In this document: one piece after another, positions 33,514 to 40,354 of the stretch
How the letters are laid out: each line of letters begins with the position of its first letter
How positions within the stretch are numbered: position 1 is the first letter of the stretch
NCBI RefSeq assembly: GCF_045679555.1
Contig: NC_092099.1
Location: 10,338,076 to 10,402,075, forward strand
Source: Salvelinus alpinus
Taxonomy: Eukaryota; Chordata; Actinopteri; Salmoniformes; Salmonidae
DNA length: 64,000 nt
Reading direction: 5' to 3'
Program-made: the position numbers and the translations under genes
Notes under the pieces: generated by a model
What the model saw: only the letters and a program-made list of their open reading frames with translations
Told to the model about the DNA's origin: nothing
Databases searched by the model: none

Positions 33514-36500
33514 CTACATATCCTTCTTCATGCTGTCGAGTTCCTCTGAGGGAAGAGAAGTTCACATGTAGTGTATCTCACATAAAAAATGGTTAAGAGA
33601 AAACAAAACTTGTACACAAAAATGGTATTCTTACTTTTGCATGAAGCAAGAGTCTGCCCTCTGTCTGCCAAGAAGAATATGTTACTGTTGGGCTGTTGAA
33701 CATAGACCCTCTGAAAGGAATATGCATCAAGATTAGCATTACCTTCACAGGAACATCACATCTTAAAGAAATTAAACAGCTAGGTTTTACATTTTATTAA
33801 CCACTTCTTACCCTGTTTTTCTTCAGATTGGAGAGCTCATCAAACACAATTTTCTGTTCCTTGATCTGCAGAAACATGACTTTAAGTGAAAAAAAACATA
33901 GATAATATAAAATGAGTTCAGTTCAGAGAACTTTCATGAAAAGGCCTTTCCAGGGAGTTTTTCCTAGCCACTGTGCTTCTACACCTGCATTGCTTGCTGT
34001 TTGGGGTTTTAGGCTGGGTTTCTGTACAGCACTTTGAGATATCAGCTGATGTAAGAAGGGCTATATAAATAAATTTGAACAGTGTTTGTAGGCCTATGTA
34101 CCACATGTACCTGTCCTGATTAATGCAAGTTCCATTTCTCTCTGTCGCAGCTTGGTGGGGGGCCCAGGAGCTTTTCTCTGTGCACCATGTACCTGTATAA
34201 GCTGCCCACATCAGTGTGAATATCTACCATAACAATAGTCATGCATTTGTAACAAGAACAGTGAGTGTTGTGTTTGTATATCCTTATTTTGCAAAATGTA
34301 AATGTTTATCTGATCTGGACTACATTTTAATTAAAATAATTTTCTAGGATGACTAACAGCCATCATTATCAATGACCACCATCCACATGCACTCCACCAC
34401 CACTTTTCTAATGAACACTTCTCTTCAATCAGCATATTGTACATGGATCAGCAAAATGTTATGTATTTATGATTAACATTCCCTTTTGTCAATAACAGCT
34501 TCTACATATCATGGCAACATGCTTGACTGAAAAACATGTACAGTGGGGCAAAAAAGTATTTAGTCAGCCACCAATTGTGCAAGTTCTCCCACTTAAAAAG
34601 ATGAGAGGCCTGTAATTTTCATCATAGGTACACTTCAACTATGACAGACAAAATGAGAAAAGAAATCCAGAAAATCACATTGTAGGATTTTTAATGAATT
34701 TATTTGCAAATTATGGTGGAAAATAAGTATTTGGTCAATAACAAAAATGTCTCAATACTTTGTTATATACCCTTTGTTGGCAATGACAGAGGTCAAACGT
34801 TTTCTGTAAGTCTTCACAAGGTTTTCACACACTGTTGCTGGTATTTTGGCCCATTCCTCCATGCAGATCTCCTCTAGAGTCATGATGTTTTGGGGCTGTT
34901 GCTGGGCAACACGGACTTTCAACTCCCTCCAAAGATTTTCTATGGGGTTGAGATCTGGAGACTGGCTAGGCCACTCCAGGACCTTGAAATGCTTCTTACG
35001 AAGCCACTCCTTCGTTGCCCGGGCAGTGTGTTTGGGATCATTGTCATGCTGAAAGACCCAGCCACATTTCATCTTCAATGCCCTTGCTGATGGAAGGAGG
35101 TTTTCACTCAAAATGTCACGATACATGGCCCCATTCATTCTTTCCTTTACACGGATCAGTCGTCCTGGTCCCTTTGCAGAAAAACAGCCCCAAAGCATGA
35201 TGTTTCCACCCCCATGCTTCACAGTAGGTATGGTGTTCTTTGGATGCAACTCAGCATTCTTTGTCCTCCAAACACGACGAGTTTTTACCAAAAAGTTCTA
35301 TTTTGGTTTCATCTGACCATATGACATTCTCCCAATCTTCTTCTGGATCATCCAAATGCTCTCTAGCAAACTTCAGACGGGCCTGGACATGTACTGGCTT
35401 AAGCAGGGGGACACGTCTGGCACTGCAGGATTTGAGTCCCTGGCGGCGTAGTGTGTTACTGATGGTAGGCTTTGTTACTTTGGTCCCAGCTCTCTGCAGG
35501 TCATTCACTAGGTCCCCCCGTGTGGTTCTGGGATTTTTGCTCACCGTTCTTGTGATCATTTTGACCCCACGGGGTGAGATCTTGCGTGGAGCCCCAGATC
35601 GAGGGAGATTATCAGTGGTCTTGTATGTCTTCCATTTCCTAATAATTGCTCCCACAGTTGATTTCTTCAAACCAAGCTGCTTACCTATTGCAGATTCAGT
35701 CTTCCCAGCCTGGTGCAGGTCTACAATTTTGTTTCTGGTGTCCTTTGACAGCTCTTTGGTCTTGGCCATAGTGGAGTTTGGAGTGTGACTGTTTGAGGTT
35801 GTGGACAGGTGTCTTTTATACTGATAACAAGTTCAAACAGGTGCCATTAATACAGGTAACGAGTAGAGGACAGAGGAGCCTCTTAAAGAAGAAGTTACAG
35901 GTCTGTGAGAGCCAGAAATATTGCTTGTTTGTAGATGACCAAATACTTATTTTCCACCATAATTTGCAAATAAATTAATAAAAAATCCTACAATGTGATT
36001 TTCTGGATTTTTTTTCTCATTTTGTCTGTCATAGTTGAAGTGTACCTATGATGAAAATTACAGGCCTCTCATATTTTTAAGTGGGAGAACTTGCACAATT
36101 GGTGGCTGACTAAATACTTTTTTGCCCCACTGTATATAGGCTTTATGGAGGTTATGGGGGTCATTCTGTTGCCCATCAGATTTAATTTATTATGGCAATA
36201 TGTCAAAGTTCTCAATTAAGAAGACGGTACTGTTCAAAAAGCATGTTTATGACTGTTCACAGGACTCTACAAATGTTATGTTGAACAAGCATCACGGATG
36301 AAGGACGGGTAGGAAAACGCCACCAAATCATCCAATGTTTGCTTCATGGACAATTGTTGGCATCTTTGAAAATAAATACAGAATACATGTTGTTTCTAAT
36401 GACTTTTTATGCTAAATGTGAGTATTTAGCAGGTCTATGGTTTTGGAATGTTTTAAATATATACAGCTGAAGTTGGAGGTTTTACATACACCTAAAAATT

Positions 36501-39500: not shown

Positions 39501-40354
39501 TTGTTTTTGCTGTCTTTTGAAGAAGTGAAGTGGGCAATATGGAATAGATTGGCGGAAGGGAGAATTAGTGAGTGACTTCATGGATGTATAAACGGAGCGC
39601 ATCCGTAAATGACACGGACAACCGCAGGGAATAAGCTGGTAAATGTAGAGCGTGTCAATGACAAAAAAAACGGTGCAGAGAAATAACATTACTTAGGATA
39701 ACGTTACATATAGCTGTTTTCAAAACATTGGACCAACTTGCGCACAGATCTAAAATTACTAGATAGCAAATCCAACCAAATACACCTTAACAATAATTTA
39801 ACAACAACATAAGTACTTCGACCGATTTCTCTGTAAAACAACGTTAGATCCAGTCTATGACATTAGCCAGAAGGCTCTGATGTTAGCAACCAGTCAAGTC
39901 TATGGAAGAGGCTCGCTAGCTAGCATCAGCTTTGTAGTGGTTATAACTACTACTATGTTGAAACACTCGTTTTAAAATGTCCTTACATTTCTCACAAGCG
40001 CAGTATTGTAGCTTTTAAAATATGTGAATATAAATGTAGTAATTCTAACGAATTTAAACCATATTTAACGAGATATCCTCCCTGTTGGTTAATGCCTGAC
40101 GCACCGGAAACGGCTCCCCCAGTAAGAGGGCTTGGAAAGTTCGAGCGTGTAACGTGTATTGAGGCAATTGAGAGTTTAGATGGAGTATTTGGCTGCCAGA
40201 AACTCAAGATTCTGACTAATTTAGCTGCCTATCTGCTAATTTCTCACACCAACAATCTGGCATTATCTAACGTTACCTTTTTGTTTAATTCCTCCTTCAG
40301 CGTAGACTCTCCCTCAGCAATGTTTTCGTTCGCTCGCTGGTTCTTTGCAGACAT
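33514..40354 (-). CDS. asdurf: ASDURF, prefoldin-like microprotein encoded upstream of ASNSD1
   Basis: Four exons with kept phase: 40354-40277, 33865-33812, 33710-33635 and 33545-33514, giving 79 aa. The start is [14 protein letters not shown]. The core, [18 protein letters not shown] followed by [16 protein letters not shown], matches the human ASNSD1 upstream reading-frame protein (96 aa) almost residue for residue. The end, [10 protein letters not shown], is about 14 residues shorter than the human protein. ASDURF is a prefoldin beta-like subunit of the PAQosome co-chaperone. Its last exon is also the first ASNSD1 coding exon, so one mRNA would carry both frames, and ASNSD1 would need leaky scanning or re-initiation. 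Intron 1 (33866-40276) holds three Tc1-type elements. The heptad-like text suits a coiled coil. Confidence 0.9.
33915..34080 (+). repeat. Interspersed repeat 3' fragment
   Basis: AAGGCCTTTCCAGGGAGTTT through GCTATATAAATAAATTTGA is a widespread fish repeat end. It is non-coding, in ASDURF intron 1. Class not assigned. The following 34081-34540 shows nothing recognisable. Confidence 0.5.
34541..36132 (-). mobile_element. Tc1/mariner element, nearly intact, TA-flanked
   Basis: Inverted ends of about 200 bp start CAGTGGGGCAAAAAAGTATT, with TA on both outer sides (34539-34540 and 36133-36134). Length 1592 bp. A minus-strand transposase begins [20 protein letters not shown] at 35769, and 34752 ends the second segment. 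The two segments overlap near 35251-35291, so one frameshift (around [11 protein letters not shown]) appears to be the main lesion. The catalytic D-D-E blocks ([25 protein letters not shown]) are all present. It lies in ASDURF intron 1. Confidence 0.92.
36464..38022 (-). mobile_element. Sleeping Beauty-like salmonid Tc1 element, decayed
   Basis: The outer ends CAGCTGAAGTTGGAGGTTTT and GTAAACTTCCGACTTTAACTG are inverted and TA-flanked. Inner copies of the direct-repeat motif (CAGTGGGTCAGAAGTTTGCA near 36609 and TGTAAACTTCTGACCTACTG near 37804) give the IR/DR arrangement of the Sleeping Beauty group. Transposase pieces on the minus strand read [48 protein letters not shown] and [14 protein letters not shown]. 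They are spread over three frames (37649-37386, 37389-37177, 37134-36661), so at least two frameshifts inactivate it. Confidence 0.93.
38027..39363 (+). mobile_element. Tc1-type element, copy A of a family present twice, right end truncated
   Basis: It begins AACTCAGCAAAAAAGAAACA right after TATA, 4 bases from the end of the Sleeping Beauty-like element. The plus-strand transposase 38271-38921 (216 codons; [41 protein letters not shown]) is cut by a stop. Its continuation in another frame holds [17 protein letters not shown] (39010-39060). The right end stops at GTGAGGACGTTTC without the full inverted terminus. Confidence 0.88.
39364..40276. other. Unique part of ASDURF/ASNSD1 intron 1
   Basis: No repeat recognised between the Tc1 copy and the donor of exon 1. 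A plus-strand frame at 40092-40367 overlaps the exon in antisense and has no support. Confidence 0.5.

Follow-up and report, generated by a model that had tools for sequence, protein, structure and literature searches.

A predicted ASDURF frame shares its last coding exon with the start of ASNSD1 in Salvelinus alpinus

We analysed a 64,000-nucleotide stretch of Salvelinus alpinus DNA (assembly GCF_045679555.1, contig NC_092099.1, positions 10,338,076 to 10,402,075; hereafter the window, whose numbering is used throughout). Its minus strand carries ASNSD1 and, directly upstream, a small frame divided over four exons. An original prediction, made by a model from the letters of the stretch, had read this frame as the fish counterpart of human ASDURF. 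The frame is very probably the orthologue of human ASDURF in a bony fish, in a predicted two-frame arrangement with ASNSD1.

A four-exon frame upstream of ASNSD1

The predicted frame consists of the following parts, given in the order of transcription.

40277..40354, minus strand: likely coding part of ASDURF exon 1, 78 nucleotides, 26 codons; phase 0 donor AAG/GTAACG, donor score 3.23
33866..40276, minus strand: intron 1, 6411 bases, with the remains of three Tc1-type transposons
33812..33865, minus strand: ASDURF exon 2, 54 nucleotides, 18 codons; acceptor TGCAG, donor AGG/GTAAGA
33635..33710, minus strand: ASDURF exon 3, 76 nucleotides; acceptor TTTCAG, donor AAA/GTAAGA
33514..33545, minus strand: coding part of ASDURF exon 4, 32 nucleotides, with the terminal TAG; the exon runs on into ASNSD1
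33462..33513, minus strand: spacer between the ASDURF stop and the ASNSD1 ATG, 52 bases, within one exon

Joined on the minus strand, the exons give 240 nucleotides, or 79 codons plus TAG, open throughout. Each of the three introns has GT-AG ends. Ranked among the 3732 minus-strand GT sites with a simple consensus score, the donors of exons 1 to 3 fall at percentiles 97.9, 98.9 and 97.3, and the three acceptors have 10/17, 12/17 and 13/17 pyrimidines. Judged by the human protein, exon 3 presumably encodes the beta hairpin and the start of the second helix. The proposal of four splice-joined exons encoding 79 residues was borne out, with coordinates right to the base, and the exon join likewise places the stop 52 bases ahead of the ASNSD1 ATG (33461), in a common exon. 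Coding exons of 10 to 26 codons are too small for ordinary open reading frame (ORF) listings, and the locus is useful for annotation in this respect.

The encoded protein matches ASDURF

The joined 79-residue protein matches a single Pfam family at E up to 1. This family, PF21975 (ASNSD1-SEP), is named 'ASNSD1 upstream open reading frame protein', and the match reaches 81.5 bits where the cut-off is 27 (E 4.9e-23). Without exon 1, exons 2-4 still reach 73.0 bits, so the identity as ASDURF is independent of exon 1. For comparison with the human protein we used a presumed human ASDURF sequence, whose letters are supported by its own score of 213.7 bits over PF21975 positions 1-96. BLASTP aligned the fish protein to this sequence ungapped, with 41 of 59 residues identical (69%) and the hairpin stretch nearly unchanged.

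In a tblastn search of the whole window with the human sequence, the top two matches were exon 3 and exon 2, with a combined E of 2e-10. Exon 2 was identical at 17 of 19 positions, one intron codon being included in the alignment, and exon 3 at 16 of 27, where the alignment extends slightly into the flanking introns. Outside these exons the lowest E in the window was 0.075, and in the reversed window it was 0.077. Chance resemblance to ASDURF was considered and rejected, on tblastn with its reversed-window control and on the PF21975 score. A core close to human ASDURF, as had been claimed, is thus present, and the proposal that the frame is ASDURF is supported by the profile, by its position, by the last exon held in common with the ASNSD1 start and by an ASNSD1 that is readable to its end. 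No relatives of ASDURF or of the ASNSD1 exon were found in viral contigs, as expected for a vertebrate gene.

The novelty of the frame was overrated in the original prediction. ASDURF already has its own Pfam model, published functions and a reviewed human protein record, the last according to PMC8894207. Among the papers searched, none had the whole words ASDURF and fish together and none had ASNSD1-SEP, which does not mean that publications on fish ASDURF or annotations of it are lacking. Fish asdurf entries exist in public gene sets.

Selection of the first exon

Exon 1 is likely to lie at 40354-40277, and this is the least certain part of the gene model. We accept it because of its donor, its surroundings and how well it fits the end of human exon 1. 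All ATG-to-GT stretches in phase 0 between 33900 and 48000 were taken as candidates (n=334) and scored against the end of human exon 1. The best fit is 40354-40277, with a score of 19 (runner-up, 8). A donor score of at least 4 occurs in 2 of the 334, both of them worse fits; the 40277 donor is itself below 4 (3.23). When the whole minus strand is considered, 2 of 1531 candidates reach the tail score of 40354-40277, itself included, and neither has a donor of at least 4; the other is a decoy at 55436-55302. A lower tail-score threshold, of at least 12, leaves six rows, five of them rivals with four distinct donors; two of these donors were scored, both poor.

As to the surroundings, when 39000-41999 is divided into 12 bins of 250 bases, the CpG observed/expected ratio peaks at 1.3 in the bin that begins at 40250, and the exon 1 ATG has an A at -3. 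One further sequence lies upstream.

40461..40470, minus strand: TATA-like site TATATAAAAG, upstream of exon 1, a consensus match only

We take human exon 1 to have 30 codons, compared with 26 in the fish, and an equal phase at the exon 1/2 junction; the last exon of the human gene is presumably also common with ASNSD1.

The protein profile was dropped as proof of exon 1. Adding this exon raises the PF21975 score by 8.5 bits (73.0 to 81.5), and four decoy first exons, picked because they fit the end of human exon 1, lift it equally, to 75.3, 78.3, 80.3 and 83.2 bits. Because the decoys raise the score, the profile alone is unable to pick exon 1. Their donors, in the same order, score -2.22, -2.69, -5.13 and -4.47, compared with 3.23 for exon 1.

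The gene could be ASDURF with a first exon other than 40354-40277; we consider this variant, which is compatible with our main claim, unlikely. For example, transcription would then begin inside intron 1 and translation at an in-frame ATG at 33877, just before exon 2, or the transcript would include an unrecognised exon. Exons 2-4 read from ATG 33877 (MFLQIKEQ...) score 74.3 bits, and the decoys, at 75.3-83.2 bits, leave exon 1 not singled out by the profile. Such a variant would, however, have to set aside the lead of 40354-40277 in fit (19 vs 8) and a donor at percentile 97.9, where those of the decoys are poor (-2.2 to -5.1). The CpG peak in the 40250 bin, the A at -3 and the presumed agreement with human exon 1 in phase and approximate length (26 vs 30 codons) also argue for an exon 1 at 40354-40277.

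Length and probable fold of the protein

Several observations weigh against our reading. The decoy exon 55436-55302, with a donor of only -4.47, reaches 83.2 bits, which makes the profile gain from exon 1 unspecific. Coverage of PF21975 is partial (profile positions 22-82 of 96), and the N-terminal 17 residues of the fish protein lie outside the match. The last 13 human residues are absent; in an alignment to the human sequence the fish stop corresponds to Gln84. To look for a hidden longer C-terminus, 33634-33440 was scanned ungapped in three frames, and no counterpart of the human tail was found. In the two top windows, with scores of 8 and 7, exon 4 is simply read out of register; all others score 5 or less, and 0.5% of random windows attain 8. 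Searches of solved structures gave no convincing match: unrelated enzymes led (E 0.38 and 0.44), and a prefoldin beta subunit 2 (3aei) came third of five at E 0.47. A two-row profile run against the solved structures gave three matches, with no prefoldin among them.

We read the incomplete coverage as length variation and not as a defining failure, as the curated cut-off does not demand full coverage. The fish protein thus has 79 residues vs 96 in human. With the last 13 residues missing, its second helix may be shorter. That the end of the C-terminal helix was lost in this fish lineage, so that the prefoldin-like module would work with a shortened beta subunit, is a tentative suggestion that we hold to be doubtful. 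If true, the last 13 residues would be dispensable, or the complex different in fish, and the locus might provide a naturally shortened PAQosome subunit, truncated at its C-terminus, for comparison with human.

The same early stop could be the first damage in a decaying ASDURF copy, for example one of two left after genome duplication, now a transcribed leader that would not yield a working subunit. A frame 13 residues short, with its stop at Gln84 of the human sequence, is what decay might produce, and the in-frame sequence past the stop shows no likeness to the human tail beyond chance (score -13, matched by 40% of 20000 random windows). Yet consensus sites and phases are kept in all three introns, the reading frame is unshifted, the hairpin stretch has hardly changed and the downstream ASNSD1 is open to its end, and we regard decay as very unlikely.

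A predicted transcript with two cistrons

ASDURF and ASNSD1 are probably carried on one messenger RNA (mRNA), as predicted from the layout of the locus. The transcript would begin slightly upstream of 40354 and be spliced over four exons, giving an mRNA with two cistrons: ASDURF, of 79 residues, and, 52 bases on in the same exon, ASNSD1, of 614. Read from position 40450, the predicted mRNA holds another short frame.

40409..40426, minus strand: 5-codon upstream frame MFFVC, 5' of the ASDURF ATG, with an A at -3

This frame would be on the mRNA if transcription begins before it, and the ASDURF transcript may thus carry an upstream frame of its own. Five further ATGs occur between the ASDURF ATG and the ASNSD1 ATG, two of them in the ASDURF frame. 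Together with the MFFVC frame, they suggest that ASNSD1 would be reached mainly by restart after a stop.

Work on the human protein indicates what fish ASDURF may do. In human cells, co-elution places ASDURF with the prefoldin-like module and the PAQosome, and it is described as a complex subunit (PMC11009110). Removal of its start codon increased the activity of a downstream reporter 2.27-fold (PMC8894207). According to a review, MYC-driven medulloblastoma cells are reported to need ASDURF (PMC11437038), and the function of the family is also treated in PMC9776223. If fish ASDURF functions as in human, which we infer, it would most likely fold as a helix-hairpin-helix, a beta-type prefoldin subunit, and would join URI1, UXT, PDRG1, PFDN2 and PFDN6 in the prefoldin-like module of the PAQosome, an HSP90 co-chaperone. 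Its translation ahead of ASNSD1 would limit ASNSD1 output, if the repression seen in human holds in fish, and that output would then depend on leaky scanning or on restart past the ASDURF stop.

Taken further, the reporter result could mean that the upstream frame is chiefly a regulatory brake on ASNSD1 and that its peptide is incidental. The 2.27-fold rise without the start codon (PMC8894207) is what a brake predicts. A brake has no need, however, of the residue conservation between fish and human (41/59), and the human protein is a complex subunit (PMC11009110); we find this explanation extremely improbable.

Comparison with related proteins and transcripts

The likeness to human ASDURF lies in the core, identical at 41 of 59 residues, and in the position upstream of ASNSD1. 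The fish protein differs in having 79 residues and not 96, in its 17 off-profile N-terminal residues and in the absence of the last 13, and the gene differs in the Tc1-type elements housed in its first intron. By predicted structure, human ASDURF groups with the beta-prefoldins, at an average template modelling (TM) score of 0.563 (PMC11009110). In sequence, fish ASDURF did not convincingly match any prefoldin chain, the beta-type prefoldins (PFDN1, 2, 4, 6) and PDRG1 being the relevant comparison.

A plant gene, AT1G49245, is listed as ASDURF and was found with UXT by affinity purification (PMC10893143). That the plant ASDURF stands under its own gene identifier suggests that the pairing of ASDURF with ASNSD1 is not universal. 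In human, ASDURF-ASNSD1 is among 14 two-protein transcripts that pass filters including ribosome footprints and conservation over 100 vertebrates (PMC13303939). The MIEF1, PIGY and SLC35A4 transcripts, which also have upstream frames, share the architecture of ASDURF-ASNSD1 and encode unrelated proteins. The Salvelinus alpinus locus would be a clean fish example of this layout, which opens no new question alone.

Transposons in intron 1

The first exon had been placed 6.4 kb away behind three transposons, and this description holds for the 6411-base intron, with the third element a remnant below the Pfam cut-off.

34536-36137, intron 1: Tc1/Sleeping Beauty-type element, 210-nucleotide inverted ends, 96%
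36578-37856, intron 1: second Tc1-type element, 63-nucleotide ends, 79%
around 38271-38921, intron 1: Tc1-type remnant, Pfam match under the cut-off

Two of the elements have matches past the Pfam cut-offs, DDE_3 at 54.7 and 56.3 bits (cut-off 28.6) and HTH_SB at 85.6 bits (cut-off 43). The third matches HTH_Tnp_Tc3_2 at 26.8 bits, under its cut-off of 31.5. A search of 28000-46000 for structural RNA gave no Rfam family at threshold.

The downstream ASNSD1 gene

The exon shared with ASDURF continues into ASNSD1, whose coding parts are as follows.

32046..33461, minus strand: ASNSD1 coding part of the shared exon (33545 to 32046), 472 codons from the ATG
31683..31864, minus strand: next ASNSD1 coding exon, with a probable GC donor after it, CTAG/GCAAGT
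30201..30447, minus strand: last ASNSD1 coding exon, with the terminal TAG

The joined frame is intact, with 614 residues, an MCGI start and amidotransferase and asparagine synthase parts. Asn_synthase matches it at 60.7 bits (cut-off 21). GATase_7 scores 25.6 bits on the shared-exon ORF and 24.9 on the joined 614 residues, just below its cut-off of 25.

The second coding intron, 31682-30448, appears to be GC-AG (CTAG/GCAAGT ... TATAG/G). A trial confined to GT donors produced 21 joins, none giving the GC-donor junction. One of these joins uses a GT donor after 31647 and leaves the acceptor unchanged; it would yield 626 residues, 12 of them additional and ahead of FPYLDED. The GC donor is probably the correct one; we favour it because of its strong consensus. 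Within this intron (31650-30490, minus strand) lies an apparent mobile-element remnant, recognised by eye from inverted ends around an insert of about 1.1 kb.

Other genes and elements in the window

A TsaD domain at 7190-7777 on the plus strand (137.3 bits) is probably part of OSGEPL1, and frames at 21130-21573 and 22395-22706 contain armadillo repeats (ANKAR-like). We take OSGEPL1 and ANKAR to be neighbours of human ASNSD1 at 2q32, and the TsaD and armadillo frames then suggest a gene order conserved with that region. No Pfam family matched the frames at 26131-26610 and 26749-27408.

Two further apparent mobile elements were noted. A single open frame of 979 residues at 11633-14572 on the minus strand presumably belongs, by its resemblance, to a non-LTR (long terminal repeat) retrotransposon endonuclease-reverse transcriptase. 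On the plus strand, two abutting frames of 132 and 192 residues at 53731-54704 resemble what we take to be a nearly whole Tc1-type transposase.

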